Assembly: GCA_017545325.1 (NCBI GenBank)
Contig: JAFWOX010000092.1
Coordinates: 1-22,747 of the forward strand
DNA from: Oscillospiraceae bacterium
GTDB taxonomy: Bacteria; Bacillota_A; Clostridia; Oscillospirales; Oscillospiraceae
Direction: 5' to 3'
Length of the DNA stretch: 22,747 nucleotides
Shown here: positions 16,218 to 22,691 of the stretch, one piece after another
Layout of the letters: each line of letters begins with the position of its first letter
Numbering within the stretch: the first letter of the stretch is position 1
Notes under the pieces: generated by a model
Database searches by the model: none
The model's input: only the letters and a program-made list of their open reading frames with translations
Told to the model about the DNA's origin: nothing
Made by a program: the position numbers and the translations under genes

Positions 16218-16248
16218 CTGGCCCCTGTGGCCCTTGTCGGAGGTACGC

Positions 16249-16698
16249 ATGAAGATCACGGAGCTGGTGGCAAGCCTGGCGGCGGAGCCTGCGGCGGCGG
16301 TCGGCTGCTTCGTCTGGGACGTGGAATTCGTCAAGGAGGGCGGCGAGCGCTACCTCCGGGTGAGCATCGATAATGACGACGCCCAGGTGGACATTGACCA
16401 GTGCGAAGCGGTGAGCAAGGCGCTGGATGCGAAGCTGGATGAGCTGGATCCCATCCAGGAATCCTATATCCTGGAGGTCTGCTCCGCCGGGGCGGAGCGG
16501 GCGCTGAAGCGGCCGGAGGATTTCGCCCGGTTCCTGGGCAGCCCGGTCACCGTCAAGCTGTACAGCGCCAAAAACGGGCGCAAGGAGTATCCCGGGATCC
16601 TGAAGGCCTGGGAGGAGGGGGACGTGGTGCTGGAGGACGGCGCCCGCTTCCGGAAGAACGAAGTGGCGCAGGTCCGCCTGCGGGTGACCTTTTCGTAA
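16249..16698 (+). CDS. rimP: Ribosome maturation factor RimP
   Basis: RimP assists late assembly of the 30S ribosomal subunit. The 149 residues match the family length. The N-terminal alpha/beta domain includes DVEFVKEGGERYLRVSIDN and 'VDIDQCEAVSKALDAKLD', and ESYILEVCSAGAERALKRPEDFARFLG corresponds to the conserved 'YxLEVSSPGldRPL' motif, here with SAGAERAL. A C-terminal SH3-like barrel follows. The ATG at 16249 has GGAGG 5 nt upstream; an in-frame TTG at 16234 lies before that ribosome-binding site and is unlikely. It is first in the operon, 23 nt before nusA, as in most Firmicutes. Confidence 0.95.
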   Translation: MKITELVASLAAEPAAAVGCFVWDVEFVKEGGERYLRVSIDNDDAQVDIDQCEAVSKALDAKLDELDPIQESYILEVCSAGAERALKRPEDFARFLGSPVTVKLYSAKNGRKEYPGILKAWEEGDVVLEDGARFRKNEVAQVRLRVTFS

Positions 16699-16721
16699 GC
16701 AAAAGAAAGGAACGACGAAGC

Positions 16722-17858
16722 ATGGACAGCGAATTCTTCCTGGCTCTGGACGAGATCGAGCGGGACAAGGGCATCTCCAGGGACTATATGCTGGAGAAGA
16801 TCAACCAGGCCCTCACCACCGCGGTGAAGAAGGATAATCCCGCCGCGGCGGACGGCGTCGTGGTGGAGACCGACGTGGAAAAGCGGAAGGTCCGCATTTA
16901 TATCGAAAAGACCGTGGTGGAGGAGGTCACAAACCCCGAGCTGGAGCTGACCCTGGAGCAGGGCCGGAAGCTGGACCCCAGGGCGGAGCTGGGCACCAAG
17001 ATCCCGGTGGATATGGAGACCAAGAAGTTCGGCCGCATCGCCGCCCAGGCGGCGAAGCAGGTGATCATCCAGGGCATCCGGGAAGCGGAGCGGGGCATGG
17101 TATTCGACCGCTTCGCCTCCAAGGAGCATGAGGTCCTGACGGGGCTGGTGAGCCGCATCGACCCCAAGACCGGCAACGTCTATGTGAAGCTCAGCACCGC
17201 CAGCGGCATGACGGAGGGCGTCATGCCCCAGACCGAGCGGATCAAGGGCGAGCTGATCCGGGAGGGGGACCACCTGAAGGTGTATGTGGTGGAGGTCCGC
17301 CGTCCCACCCGGGGACCCCAGGTGATGGTGAGCCGCACCCACCCCGGCCTGGTGAAGCGCCTCTTCGAGCAGGAGGTGCCCGAGATCGCCGACGGCATCG
17401 TGGAGATCCGCAGCATCGCCCGGGAGGCGGGCACCCGCAGCAAGATCGCCGTCTGGAGCTCGGATCCCCAGGTGGATCCCATCGGCTCCTGCGTGGGCCC
17501 CAGGAGCGGCCGGGTCAACGCCGTGGTGGAGGAGCTCCGGGGGGAGAAGATCGACATCGTGAAATGGAGCGAGAACACGGAGGACTTCGTCGCCGCCGCC
17601 CTGGCTCCCGCGGAGGTGTACAGCGTCTCCCGGCTGGAGAACGACCACAGCTTCCGGGCCGTGGTGCCGGATAATCAGCTCAGCCTGGCCATCGGCAAGG
17701 AGGGGAAGAACGCCCGCCTGGCCGCCAAGCTCACCGGCTGCCGCATCGATATCCGCCCCGCCTCGGAGATGATGGAGCACAGCCGCATCAGCATCGACCT
17801 GGATAAGCTGGATCTGACTCCGGAGGAGGATCCGGAGCCCGTGGAAGAAGAAGAATAA
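16722..17858 (+). CDS. nusA: Transcription termination/antitermination factor NusA
   Basis: NusA binds RNA polymerase and nascent RNA to control pausing, intrinsic termination and antitermination. The 378 residues show the N-terminal polymerase-binding domain (1 to about 130, opening SEFFLALDEIERDKGIS), an S1 domain (about 136-200), KH1 with the GSCVGPRSGRV loop (255-265) and KH2 with AIGKEGKNARLAAKLTGCRIDI (323-344). The C-terminus is a short acidic tail without the extra AR repeats of E. coli, as usual in Firmicutes. AAAGGAA precedes the ATG. It lies in the rimP operon and could act on the leader terminator of its own operon. Confidence 0.97.
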   Translation: MDSEFFLALDEIERDKGISRDYMLEKINQALTTAVKKDNPAAADGVVVETDVEKRKVRIYIEKTVVEEVTNPELELTLEQGRKLDPRAELGTKIPVDMETKKFGRIAAQAAKQVIIQGIREAERGMVFDRFASKEHEVLTGLVSRIDPKTGNVYVKLSTASGMTEGVMPQTERIKGELIREGDHLKVYVVEVRRPTRGPQVMVSRTHPGLVKRLFEQEVPEIADGIVEIRSIAREAGTRSKIAVWSSDPQVDPIGSCVGPRSGRVNAVVEELRGEKIDIVKWSENTEDFVAAALAPAEVYSVSRLENDHSFRAVVPDNQLSLAIGKEGKNARLAAKLTGCRIDIRPASEMMEHSRISIDLDKLDLTPEEDPEPVEEEE

Positions 17859-17883
17859 ACGGAGCTGGGAGGAAGCAGACAGT

Positions 17884-18180
17884 ATGCCGAAGCATGTGCC
17901 GCTGCGTCAATGCCTGGGCTGCCGGGAACACAGGCCCAAGCGGGAGCTGGTGCGGGTGGTCCGCACCCCCGAGGGGGAGCTGCGCCTGGACCGGACGGGG
18001 AAGCTCTCCGGCCGAGGGGCCTACCTGTGCACCCGGCCCGACTGCTTCCGGAAGGCGAAGAAATCCAAGGCTCTGGACCGGGCGCTGAACGTCAGCGTTC
18101 CGGAGGAGCTTTACGATAAGCTGGCCGCGGAGCTGGCGTCCCTGCCCCCGCCGCCGGAGGAGGTGACCGGGGATGGATAA
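17884..18180 (+). CDS. rnpM: RNase P modulator RnpM (YlxR family)
   Basis: This small RNA-binding protein has 98 residues. It carries the YlxR signature: PLRQCLGCREHRPKRELVRVV near the N-terminus and GRGAYLCTRPDCF near residue 43, with paired Cys residues. The family member in Bacillus subtilis has been described as a modulator of RNase P and was earlier known as YlxR. It lies 25 nt after nusA, with GGGAGG upstream of its ATG, and overlaps ylxQ by 8 nt, the standard Firmicutes order. The Pro-rich C-terminal end is not conserved. Confidence 0.93.
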   Translation: MPKHVPLRQCLGCREHRPKRELVRVVRTPEGELRLDRTGKLSGRGAYLCTRPDCFRKAKKSKALDRALNVSVPEELYDKLAAELASLPPPPEEVTGDG

Positions 18181-18535
18181 GGCCCTGAGCTTTCTGGGGC
18201 TCTGCCGCAGGGCAGGCAAGCTCCTGATCGGGAAGGACGGCGTCTCCGGCGCCGCCCGGAGCGGGCAGGCCGTCCTGCTCATGGTGGCCTCGGACACCGC
18301 GGACAATACGAGGAAGAAGGCGGGGAACCTGAGCCGCTGGTACGGGATCCCCATGATCGCGCTCCCCTGGGACAAGGATACCCTGGGCGAGCTGCTGGAT
18401 AAGCGGGTCTGCGCCATCCTGGCGCTGACGGACAAGGGCCTTGCCGCCGCCCTGCAGAAAAAGCTGGCCGCCCCGCCCGGGCGGGACGGGGAGACTGCGG
18501 CGGACAGGACCGGGAAAGGGAGGACAGAGCAATGA
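18173..18535 (+). CDS. ylxQ: L7Ae-family RNA-binding protein YlxQ
   Basis: The 120-residue protein has the L7Ae/L30e/Gadd45 fold. Its family wording includes [20 protein letters not shown] at the start and '[17 protein letters not shown]' in the middle. Such proteins bind kink-turn RNAs and associate with ribosomes, but the precise role of YlxQ is not settled. About 20 residues at the C-terminus are a charged, non-conserved tail. It overlaps rnpM by 8 nt and infB by 4 nt (ATGA), so translation is coupled. GGAGGAGG within rnpM precedes its ATG. Confidence 0.92.
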
Positions 18536-21036
18536 TCAAATACCGCGTGCATGAGGTTGCCAAGGATTTCGGCACCACGTATAAGGCGCTGGCGGAGATC
18601 CTGACCAAGTACTCCGAGGCGCCCAAAAACCACATGCAGGTGCTGACGGACCGGGAGCTGAACATCATCTTTGATTATCTGACCTTCCATAACCAGGTGG
18701 CCAGTCTGGACGAGATCTATGCCGAAGGCCGCCCCCCTCAGCCCAAGGCCCCGGAGAAAGCCCCCGAGCCGATCCAGTCGGCTCCGGAGAAGGGCCCGGA
18801 GAAGGCCCCGGAGGCGGCGAAGCCTCAGCCCCAGAAGCCGGCGCCCGCCCAGGGCCAGAAGCCGGTCCAGCCGGCGGCCCAGGGCCAGAAGCCGCCCCAG
18901 CCCCAGCAGCCGGGCAGCAAGCCGCAGCAGGCGGCAAAGCAGCCTCAGCCGGCGGCGAAGCAGCCCCAGCCCGGGCAGAAGCCCGCGCAGCCTCAGCCTC
19001 AGACCCAGGCCCAGGGACAGGGCGGCAAGCCCCAGCAGGGCCAGCCCTCCTCCCGGGTGCCCCAGAAGCGGGTCATCGATACCCGCAGCACGACGCTGAA
19101 TACCGCGAAATACGATGAGCGGCTGGATAAATTCGTGCCGGAGAAGCTCCAGAACGCCCGGCAGGGCAAGGAGAAGATCGGCGGCCGGAAGGATAAGCGC
19201 CCCGGCGCCAATGCCGCGGCCTCCGGCGCCAAGCGGCGGCAGGAGCAGCGGGCCCAGATGCAGAAGCTCCAGCTGGAGATCGCCAAAAAGGCCCCGGTGA
19301 AGGTCACCATCCCCGATGAGATCAGCGTGGGCGAGCTGGCCAGCCGCATGAAGAAGACCGGCGCGGAGGTGGTGCGCACCCTCATCAAGATGAAGGTCAT
19401 GGCCTCCCTCTCCGATGTGATCGATTACGATACCGCCGCCCTGGTGGCCATGGAGCTGGGCTGCAAGGTGGAGCACGAGGTCGTTGTCTCCATTGAGGAA
19501 CAGCTCATCGACGACCGGGAGGATACGGCGGAAGAGCTGAAGCCCCGGAGCCCCGTGGTGGTGGTCATGGGCCACGTGGACCACGGCAAGACCTCCCTGC
19601 TGGATAAGATCCGCCACGCCCACGTGGCGGAAGGGGAGGCCGGCGGCATCACCCAGGCCATCGGCGCCTATCAGGTGGAGATCAACGGAAAGACGATCAC
19701 CTTCCTGGATACCCCTGGCCACGAGGCCTTTACCTCCATGCGGGCCCGGGGCGCCATGGTGACGGATATCGCCATCCTGGTGGTGGCGGCGGACGACGGC
19801 ATCATGCCCCAGACCGTCGAGGCCATCAACCATGCCCGGGCGGCCAACATCCCCATCGTAGTGGCCATCAACAAAATGGATAAGCCGGGAGCCAATCCCG
19901 AGCTCATCAAGCAGCAGCTCACCAAGTACGACCTGCTCAGCGAGGAGTGGGGCGGCGATACCATCATCTGCGAGGTATCCGCCCGCACGGGACAGGGCAT
20001 CGACAATCTTCTGGAGATGGTCGCCCTGAGCGCCGAGATGCGGGAGCTGAAGGCGAATCCGGACCGGGCCGCCCGGGGCACCGTGATCGAGGCCCGGCTG
20101 GATAAGGGCCGCGGCCCCGTGGCCACGGTCCTGGTGCAGAACGGCACCCTCCGCTCCGGCGACGTGGTGATCGCGGGCACCGCCGTGGGCCGCATCCGGA
20201 CCATGGTGGGGGACAAGGGCCAGCGGCTCACCGAGGCGGGCCCCAGCGTTCCCGTGGAGGTCACGGGCCTCAGCGAGGCGCCGGAGGCCGGCGACGTGTT
20301 CAACGTGGTGGCGGACGAGCGCATGGCCCGGGTCCTGGTGGAGCAGCGGAAGGAAGAGAAGAAGAAGGCCAGCACCGGCGGCGAGCGGAAGGTCACCCTG
20401 AACGACCTCTTCGCCCAGATCAAGGAAGGGGAGCTGAAGGAGCTCACCCTCATCGTGAAGGGCGATGTGCAGGGCTCCGTGGAGGCGGTGAAATCCAGCC
20501 TGGAGAAGCTCAGCAACGAGGAAGTCCGGGTGCGGGTCATCCATGGCGCCGTGGGCGCCATCAACGAGAGCGACGTCATGCTGGCGGCCACCAGCAACGC
20601 CATCATCGTGGGCTTCAATGTCCGGCCCGAGGCCGCCGCCCGGGACAGCGCCGCCCGCAGCGGCGTGGATATCCGCCTGTACCGCATCATCTATGAATGC
20701 ATCGCGGAGATCGAAGCCGCCATCAAGGGCATGCTCGCCCCCAAGTTCCAGGAAAGCCTGATCGGCCATGCCCAGGTGCGGCAGCTCTACCATGTATCCA
20801 AGGTGGGCACCATCGCGGGCTGCTATGTGCAGGACGGGAAGATCACCCGGAACGCCGGCGTGCGGGTGGTGCGGGACGGCATCGTGGTCTTCGAAGGGGA
20901 GCTGGCCTCCCTGCGCCGGTTCAAGGACGACGTGAAGGAGGTCGCCGAGGGCTACGAATGCGGCATGAGCATCGAGCGCTTCAACGACCTGAAAGAAGGG
21001 GACATCCTGGAAGCCTTCGTCATGGAACAGATCTAA
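18532..21036 (+). CDS. infB: Translation initiation factor IF-2
   Basis: IF-2 is the GTPase that places initiator tRNA on the ribosome and promotes subunit joining. The 834 residues comprise an IF2N domain (1 to about 55), a low-complexity Pro/Gln/Lys/Ala linker (about 66-178), a basic helical region, a second IF2N-like domain (about 256-320), the G domain with GHVDHGKT (347-354), DTPGH (393-397) and NKMD (447-450), and then domains II, III and C-terminal IV. All GTPase motifs are intact. The ATG overlaps the ylxQ stop. GGGAGG precedes the start. A terminator follows 24 nt after the stop, so rbfA and truB, which often follow, are not part of this operon here. Confidence 0.98.
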
Positions 21037-21722: not shown

Positions 21723-21765
21723 GGCTTCCCCTGGGGGAAGCTGGCGCGGAGCGCCTGATGAGGGA
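21723..21765 (+). repeat. Double-hairpin REP-like repeat, copy 1 (forward)
   Basis: This 43-bp unit folds as two adjacent hairpins: an 8-bp stem around GCTTCCCC/GGGGAAGC and a 5-bp stem GGCGC/GCGCC, ending in the tail GATGAGGGA. It differs from copy 3 at a single loop base. It lies 55 nt before the DUF559 start codon. Similar palindromes are, to my knowledge, common between genes of gut Clostridia. Confidence 0.85.
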
Positions 21766-21819
21766 CATTTTCTGTGACCGAACCATAGCGGCAACTCACC
21801 TTGGGCAAAGGAAACAGAC

Positions 21820-22191
21820 ATGCAAAATCTGAGCAACAGCCATCTCACCCCATTCGCCAAATCGCTGCGCAGGAATATGACGAAAGAGGAACGGAAGCTC
21901 TGGTACAACTTTCTGAAACTCCTTCCGGTCACTGTGAATCGGCAAAAGGTCATCGGCAATTCCATCGTTGATTTCTGTATTTATTCGGCAAAACTAGTAA
22001 TCGAACTGGACGGGGATCAGCACGGAGAGCCGGAAGGTCTGGCCAAGGATGCGAACCGGGACGCCTGGCTGGCAGAACAGGGTTTTACCGTGCTGCGATA
22101 TGGCAATTATGCCATAAATTCCGCTTTCGAAGAGGTCTGTCGGGATATCCTGGCGCATTTGCCCGGGGTTGCCGCTCCGGTGATCGAATAA
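21820..22191 (+). CDS. DUF559 (Vsr-like) endonuclease-domain protein
   Basis: The 123-residue protein has the DUF559 fold of the PD-(D/E)XK/Vsr endonuclease superfamily. The N-terminal part reads LTPFAKSLRRNMTKEERKLWYNFLK. The putative catalytic core is IVDFCIYSAKLVIELDGDQH (49-68), with Asp51, Glu62, Asp64 and His68 as candidate active-site or metal ligands. DANRDAWLAEQGFTVLRY (77-94) is the other family hallmark. Length is normal and all motifs look intact. AAAGGA lies 7 nt before the ATG. Its biological role is unknown; relatives are suspected DNA nucleases. It is bracketed by inverted REP-like repeats, suggesting it belongs to that element rather than to the neighbouring core operon. Confidence 0.88.
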   Translation: MQNLSNSHLTPFAKSLRRNMTKEERKLWYNFLKLLPVTVNRQKVIGNSIVDFCIYSAKLVIELDGDQHGEPEGLAKDANRDAWLAEQGFTVLRYGNYAINSAFEEVCRDILAHLPGVAAPVIE

Positions 22192-22202
22192 CCGCGATAC
22201 AT

Positions 22203-22245
22203 TCCCTCATCCGCCCCTGCGGGGCACCTTCCCCCGAGGGAAGGC
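22203..22245 (-). repeat. Double-hairpin REP-like repeat, copy 2 (inverted)
   Basis: Read on the minus strand, this 43-bp copy matches copy 1 at 33 of 43 positions and keeps the GATGAGGGA tail. Of the ten differences, six form three paired changes that preserve stem pairing: outer pair of hairpin 1, and pairs 2 and 4 of hairpin 2. It begins 12 nt after the DUF559 stop. Confidence 0.8.
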
Positions 22246-22315
22246 AGACCGCGCGGCGGGGACGAAAGACGGGAACTCGGGGAACTATGTGAGACGGGGC
22301 AGCGACGCGCACCCT

Positions 22316-22358
22316 GGCTTCCCCTGGGGGAAGCTGGCGCGAAGCGCCTGATGAGGGA
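22316..22358 (+). repeat. Double-hairpin REP-like repeat, copy 3 (forward)
   Basis: It is identical to copy 1 over 42 of 43 positions; the one difference (G to A) falls in the loop of the second hairpin. Similarity fades within about 10 nt on either side, which marks the unit's borders. It lies 70 nt beyond copy 2 in opposite orientation. Confidence 0.85.
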
Positions 22359-22413
22359 CTCTCGCCCCGCCGGGCGGACTGTCTTCTCGCTGCGGCTCGG
22401 TCAGGCGCGGCTC

Positions 22414-22434: not shown

Positions 22435-22632
22435 TTCACTACCGCGCCCCTGCTTCGCAGCCCCCGGGAAAGCCAGGGCGGTAATCTCCCTGCGCCGGTG
22501 CGGCGAAGGGCACCCTGAAAAGCAAACGACTATTGCCAAGCAGATTCAAAGTCGGCAAGCTGACGTTCAGCACCCGCTTGTTCACCGCCGCGCCTTTGCC
22601 CCCTTCGCTTCAGCGCCCGCCGCACCGGGGGT

Positions 22633-22661: not shown

Positions 22662-22691
22662 CCCGGTTTCTCTCGCGCAAGAGAAACCGGG
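22662..22691. repeat. Perfect 12-bp hairpin near the right edge
   Basis: CCCGGTTTCTCT and AGAGAAACCGGG (22662-22673 with 22680-22691) flank a 6-nt loop. It lacks a T-tract on both strands. It may be a repeat-family member or a terminator-like structure of a gene lying beyond the window. Confidence 0.6.

Follow-up and report, generated by a model that had tools for sequence, protein, structure and literature searches.

What role does a nuclease gene play between inverted copies of a folded repeat? The window (the whole stretch of DNA analyzed, 22,747 nucleotides) contains a DUF559 gene of 123 aa (21820..22191, + strand; PF04480) for a predicted EDxHD/Vsr-fold nuclease. An earlier note had placed the gene between a forward and an inverted copy of a repeat, with a third copy 70 nt further on, and the coordinates confirm this arrangement. 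We consider it probable that a repeat–nuclease system is present in the window in one copy, with a DUF559 nuclease that recognizes and spreads its cognate hairpin repeats.

Repeat units and nuclease of the window

The unit (43–44 nt) is built of hairpin 1 with a CTTCCC arm, then hairpin 2, then the tail GATGAGGGA. Copy 1 (type B; 21723..21766, + strand) has the stems GCTTCCC/GGGAAGC and GGCGC/GCGCC, and its tail, TGATGAGGGA, is directed towards the DUF559 gene. Copy 2 (type A; 22202..22245) is inverted and lies on the − strand. Its stems are CCTTCCC/GGGAAGG and GCCCC/GGGGC, and its tail, GGATGAGGGA, is likewise directed towards the gene. Copy 3 (type B; 22316..22359, + strand) turns its hairpin-1 side towards copy 2, with 70 nt between them. 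All 12 stem pairs are intact in each of the three copies. The two hairpins of the 43-bp unit proposed earlier are real, but its anatomy had to be corrected, since the conserved 3′ tail GATGAGG belongs to the unit.

Between copies 1 and 2, the first 43 sites show ten differences. Six of these form three compensatory pair swaps, exactly as first counted; three others lie in loops and one is the T/G preceding GATGAGG. DNA folding gave z values of −2.4, −2.7, and −4.0 for the window copies. The pair test on these three copies is weak alone (25 of 500 shuffles scored equally high). Among 14 same-length units from other genomes, both-side changes numbered 20 against 5.9 in shuffled units, and none of 500 shuffles reached this value. 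Selection for the folded form, which the earlier note had proposed for single-stranded DNA or RNA, is supported by these changes; of the two, the triplex rules described below point to DNA. No Rfam family was found in the window at the gathering score.

Beyond copy 3, an inverted repeat at 22461–22478 is 89% complementary to 22312–22329 at the start of copy 3, and a 15-bp palindrome pair (93% complementary) occupies 22662–22691. A rimP-nusA-ylxR-L7Ae-infB-like operon, identified by reading only, lies immediately upstream (16234–21036), so that the window element sits behind a conserved housekeeping operon.

The window ORF matches PF04480 with an E value of 8e−29 (100.1 bits against a cut-off of 20.6). 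This is the sole family over the cut-off, and the Y1/HUH domain PF01797 was not matched in the protein. A protein search returned 5135 relatives. D51 and H68 (numbering of the window protein) are conserved residues. A structure model of the window protein (pLDDT 75, pTM 0.68) matches 3hrl, 3r3p (I-Bth0305I), and 1cw0 (Vsr). The match to 3r3p has a TM score of 0.74 by target length and an E value of 4e−4, and that to Vsr an E value of 9e−3. The entry 3hrl is NGO0050 of N. gonorrhoeae, an uncharacterized, endonuclease-like protein that is also a solved DUF559-like structure, with a profile E value of 1e−20 to the window protein. The DUF559 protein is thus predicted to share the fold of EDxHD homing endonucleases and Vsr. 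I-Bth0305I and Vsr resemble it in fold; the DUF559 gene differs in that it stands by itself, bounded by hairpin repeats, and lies outside any intron or intein.

Selection on the protein was assessed from dN/dS in 15 pairs, of which three with an in-frame stop (all involving locus L027) and one with saturated dS were left out. The ratio is 0.05–0.11 in nine of the 11 computed pairs, which argues for selection on the protein; it is 0.15 and 0.29 in the two most similar pairs. The L027 frame as delimited contains an in-frame TAA and may be a pseudogene or have a wrong boundary. In the open literature searched, with subscription papers and preprints largely outside, DUF559 appeared in no title or abstract. 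The available part of PMC9403480 assigns a DUF559 gene to the EDxHD homing endonuclease family, and that of PMC12907096 connects 5mC repair in Caulobacter with the DUF559 protein VsrA.

Units at DUF559 genes and their proposed third strand

Enrichment of the repeats beside DUF559 genes was measured on relatives, with genome-wide counts taken from the relatives' genomes. We used 80 gut-Clostridia loci, the best 80 of 571, picked by protein likeness and not by repeats (30-sequence alignment). Scanning these best 80 of 571 loci (1,149,975 bases) with a simple pattern gave 175 units, spread over 72 of the 80; shuffled sequence gave none. Of the 175 units, 153 lay no more than 500 bp from a DUF559 gene, a zone that makes up 6.5% of the bases. 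After removal of 11 loci with short flanks, 59 of 69 DUF559 genes had a unit within 300 bp, compared with 15 of 546 ORFs situated over 1.5 kb from the gene. Units stood on both sides of 31 of these 69 genes, and both tails faced the gene in 27; the units bracket many DUF559 genes, with the tail mostly towards the gene. Of 76 upstream flanks, 68% scored at least 12 for a generic double hairpin, as did 52% of 73 downstream flanks; among 372 random pieces the share was 6%. The enrichment that the earlier note had looked for is present in the relatives, and the association of DUF559 with the repeats is close to certain.

The tail itself follows a rule. The available part of PMC4666352 describes a class II intrastrand triplex motif as a pyrimidine arm, a purine arm, and then a third strand. 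When the tail is read against the 5′ arm, C pairs with G, and T with A or T. In a purine-motif triplex an inverted G-C pair takes T. Of 179 units, 144 are simple, the other 35 having long linkers. Among these 144, a closing C-G pair with G before the tail occurs 100 times and a G-C pair with T 41 times; three units show other combinations and the crossed combinations are absent. In 19 lineages read by eye, 7.6 of eight places obeyed the triplex rule, compared with 5.0 when arms and tails were swapped; the window lineage obeys it at seven of eight. Stem and tail co-vary by purine-motif rules, and the sequences give strong support to a putative third-strand code.

An automated test, applied to either strand and tolerant of small shifts in register, was adopted after the result of a stricter one had been seen. 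The stricter test demanded a perfect match of the outermost 8 nt and gave little contrast (9.8% near DUF559 and 6.7% far from it; shuffled, 0.6% and 0.9%). By the automated test, the rule is obeyed close to DUF559 by 84% of 170, 87% of 105, and all 19 hairpins in three sets, against 28%, 25%, and 43% of their shuffled counterparts. Hairpins far from DUF559 also fit (45% of 145 against 19% shuffled), which we count against DUF559 as the mobilizer of the repeats. On plasmids, eight of nine far hairpins fit, compared with 19% shuffled.

Scored by gene, the three sets had a triplex-capable hairpin within 350 bp of DUF559 in 70 of 74, 47 of 54, and 11 of 14 cases; shuffled flanks of the same three sets contained none. 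Loci with short flanks (six of 80 and two of 56) had been left out, and the three failures among the 14 scored plasmid loci are L141, L146, and L153. Controls were available for the first and third sets, in which 48 of 471 and none of three ORFs, respectively, had such a hairpin. The 48 control ORFs weigh against DUF559 as the mobilizer, and would suit a reading of the units as ordinary terminators or mRNA-stability hairpins that stand at the gene by chance. That reading is contradicted by units on both sides and in both orientations, by the conserved third-strand tail, and by the specificity of the families described below. We rejected it and give it hardly any credence, the least of all the explanations weighed.

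The folded form points to DNA and not RNA, because the tail obeys purine-motif rules and such triplexes, according to the part of PMC4666352 available, cannot form in RNA. CD and NMR data for the E. coli motif are published in that source. It also reports in vivo footprinting in E. coli with no stable triplex, a result that speaks against the reading favored here. The T-for-inverted-pair rule is part of the code kept by evolution, and this suggests that folded DNA matters in cells.

The units resemble the intrastrand-triplex repeats BoxC/PIT/TM, because the tail matches the pyrimidine arm by purine-motif rules. Like BoxC/PIT/TM_ECO they have the class II order (pyrimidine, purine, reverse Hoogsteen) and follow the third-strand rules, and they too are intergenic with many copies. 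They differ in the loops, which are 1–6 nt in BoxC/PIT/TM by database definition; in the 144 Clostridia units the second loop is a hairpin of 11–34 nt. In E. coli and some alphaproteobacteria the second loop is short.

Repeat families, co-occurrence, and dispersal

A DUF559 match is present in 40 of 147 genomes of one order, and is strong (cut-off 1e−20) in 32. Many of the inspected genes without a GATGAGG unit carry other units of the same build, with CTCTCCC, CTCCCTTG, CCCTCTTT, or CCTCCCCC as arms and GAGAGGG, GAGGGATT, GGGTGTTT, or GGAGGGGG as tails. Ten tail patterns, of which three are subtypes of GATGAGG, together account for 112 of 137 loci, with some genes counted twice. Read by eye, the four DUF559 paralogs of genome G004 each carry a different repeat family, and paralogs also differ in family in G001, G002, G003, G005, G006, and G012. 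A single GATGAGG type is shared by both paralogs of G010, by both of G011, and by two of the three in G012, and these cases weigh against a nuclease that mobilizes its own repeats.

Repeat labels cluster on a protein tree: they required 18 changes, against 22.8 when shuffled (none of 200 shuffles as low). The 137 loci hold 104 different proteins of suitable length. The tree kept 87 of 137 rows, after removal of L102, L108, L131, identical or odd-length proteins, and those labeled 'none'; it is poorly resolved, the sample leans to one family, and the label of L094 conflicts with its own nearest flank. Both this test and that on the 19 lineages carry selection, because the tail families and the arm/tail pairs were read by eye.

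At the level of genomes, strong DUF559 matches occur in 15 of 30 genomes with GATGAGG repeats and in 17 of 117 others (odds ratio 5.9, p 1e−4). Matches to the pattern number 2–56 per genome in 12 genomes, and the reversed GATGAGG control gave zero matches throughout the genomes scanned. With three patterns taken together, 28 of 32 DUF559 genomes have a repeat, compared with 31 of 115 without DUF559 (odds ratio 19); the p value of 6e−10 is partly circular, because two of the three were derived from the flanks of DUF559 genes in this very set. Taken by itself, the GAGAGGG pattern falls short of significance (p 0.06). When reversed it is not a clean control, as several genomes match: G018, G042, G061, and G106, none with a strong DUF559 match, have 4 to 16 matches each, counted over both strands. 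In these matches the order is third strand, purine arm, pyrimidine arm, which by sequence would place them in a family of class I triplex repeats.

None of the three patterns was found in four of the 32 DUF559 genomes, which again counts against DUF559 as mobilizer. Conversely, 31 of the 59 genomes with any of the patterns have no strong DUF559 match, some of them with dozens of copies. The chief evidence against strict dependence on DUF559 comes from these repeat-only genomes; lost genes and broken assemblies are a possible explanation of them.

The layout recalls REP sequences and their RAYT genes. In the available part of PMC2817692, REP/RAYT genes lie between two inverted palindromes, the repeats are dispersed, two repeat types stand beside one gene, and gene and repeat co-evolve. 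The DUF559 units share these features, with the gene between two inverted palindromes that are dispersed elsewhere in the genome. They differ in the enzyme, which has the EDxHD/Vsr fold and is not a Y1/HUH tyrosine transposase, and in the unit, where a triplex third strand follows two hairpins. The GT(A/G)G head of REPs is missing: none of the 179 units starts with GTAG, and ten contain it internally. GTAG palindromes stand beside two of 48 units and 11 of 1600 random places. The resemblance to REP/RAYT noted earlier is therefore one of layout and not of kinship.

A rival reading has the units moved by an HUH (Y1) transposase, RAYT or IS200/IS605, with DUF559 as a passenger. Apart from the REP-like layout, it can draw on some Y1_Tnp match in nine of 14 repeat genomes. 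The other five (G003, G004, G009, G010, and G072) have repeats and no such match; since all 14 are drafts or of unknown completeness, this absence is not proof. A similar hairpin lay near one of the 11 scored Y1_Tnp genes, six of the 17 matches being unscored. From these two counts a Y1 transposase seems unneeded, and we rejected this explanation as very unlikely.

Evidence on mobility comes from G003, which contains gene-less unit–spacer–unit elements of approximately 165 bp. In six aligned copies the left end is AAGGCTT (6/6) and the right end GGCTT (5/6), and the flanks differ, save for two copies that follow a similar GTAG palindrome. One of these six sites is empty in five relatives (G004, G169, G183, G196, and G202). 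At three further sites with an element, G004 has a shorter stretch that is unrelated or scar-like. In an Anaerovibrio relative whose glyQ is 98% identical, the whole repeat–DUF559–repeat segment between tRNA-Arg and glyQ is absent, with an inexact junction and gene names assigned by reading. Of 27 DUF559 pairs with at least 80% identity, 23 have no match in flanking DNA, a figure subject to contig ends and divergence. Dispersal of the repeats as discrete elements, with gene-less copies at different sites, is well supported.

No clear target-site duplication was seen among the elements examined, nor did any relative show an exact empty site for an element that carries the gene; both results tell against mobilization by the nuclease. 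The comparison of empty and filled sites that the earlier note had in mind, made on relatives, did not refute its hypothesis: there are sites that lack the unit pair and one that lacks the whole segment. No empty counterpart of the window's own site was found: three of 391 genomes matched the upstream gene, and its nearest homologue (65%, G545, L262) lies in another context.

Two further observations concern the G003 sites. The gene-less copies at G003:C22 47206 and C23 54277 lie directly beside palindromes starting with GTAGGGG, which recall classical REPs. At G003:C14 8500, 10115, and 21165 and at G003:C12 14450, compared with G004:C7, the same intergenic sites carry different families or tails, as if sites were reused by hairpin elements.

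DUF559 might instead be a homing-like nuclease that invades repeat pairs, cutting within unit–spacer–unit so that repair copies the gene in, while the repeats spread by other means. The model and profile matches to the EDxHD homing endonuclease I-Bth0305I favor this, as do the assignment in PMC9403480 cited above and the occurrence of gene-less unit pairs whose outward ends match those of gene-bearing elements. Paralog-specific repeat families fit homing and mobilization alike. Homing alone, however, leaves unexplained the gene-less spread in G003 and G004, which have no Y1_Tnp match, and we regard it as unlikely, although it is the strongest of the alternatives.

Mobilization of the repeats by DUF559 is in our view the most likely role, but unproven; we infer recognition, cutting, and spreading. 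As single-stranded DNA, the unit could fold into an intrastrand purine-motif triplex, in which the second hairpin serves as the linker and the third strand is G-rich. The DUF559 protein may then bind its own folded unit, probably when this is single-stranded at replication, and nick or cut at the element end. Such cutting could drive the copying of gene-bearing and gene-less elements, as is thought for TnpA-REP/RAYT on REPs. If this is true, DUF559, a common family, would have a testable function as a repeat-mobilizing nuclease unrelated to RAYTs. Relative to the open literature searched, with subscription papers and preprints largely outside, the pairing of DUF559 genes of very different bacteria with matching dispersed repeats suggests a new kind of mobile DNA system.

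DUF559 genes in other phyla and E. coli ycjD

A tblastn search of plasmid records with the window protein returned 30 records, of which 16 were examined together with two phage pieces. Related palindromes stand at DUF559 genes in Deinococcus, Azospirillum, Shinella, and at E. coli ycjD. All four Deinococcus genes lie between inverted repeats, the longest of approximately 56 bp with one mismatch. Their tails, read by eye, point outward, which counts against DUF559 as mobilizer; tails of the plasmid set may also point outward. In Shinella the arm is CCTTCTCC and the tail GGATGAGG.

In three Deinococcus records DUF559 occupies different junctions of the hpa operon, and it also occurs in the paa operon; in Sphingomonas the gene lies between sufB and sufC. 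The loci at which DUF559 interrupts hpa, paa, or suf operons at gene junctions are L140, L143, L148, L145, and L144. These positions bear on another alternative, by which DUF559 serves the host as a nuclease for repair or clean-up (similar to Vsr, or resolving triplexes or cruciforms) and is kept beside its hazard, the repeats being spread otherwise. The Vsr fold, the tie of Caulobacter VsrA to 5mC repair, and the strong purifying selection would suit such an enzyme. A trans-acting enzyme, however, needs neither its own flanking repeat family nor different junctions of one operon. We think this reading improbable, somewhat more so than homing.

We judge the chances even that spreading by DUF559 defines a wider class of mobile elements. 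BoxC/PIT/TM of E. coli and the related repeats of cyanobacteria, Deinococcus, and alphaproteobacteria would then be products or relics of DUF559 nucleases that spread their own triplex repeats, with ycjD as the E. coli member. Widespread repeats, one known in E. coli among them, might then have their origin in such systems.

E. coli ycjD belongs to DUF559 and has sapF and fabI as its neighbors. At least 80% of its locus is covered in 3332 of 5426 complete E. coli genomes. Absence of ycjD was considered as a simple empty site and dropped, because efflux genes replace it: four inspected strains carry them directly after sapF. According to the part of PMC4666352 available, transposase or integrase remnants are absent beside the E. 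coli motifs and no mobility gene lies nearby; its main text contains no mention of DUF559, ycjD, or an endonuclease. Table 1 of the same source gives five inverted pairs, each of type A and type B; its motif 9 lies between ycjD and fabI in MG1655. In that genome ycjD spans 1351407–1351760 and TM_ECO motif 9 spans 1351204–1351239, 168 nt apart. The 36-mer of motif 9 is also present in L156, L157, and L158.
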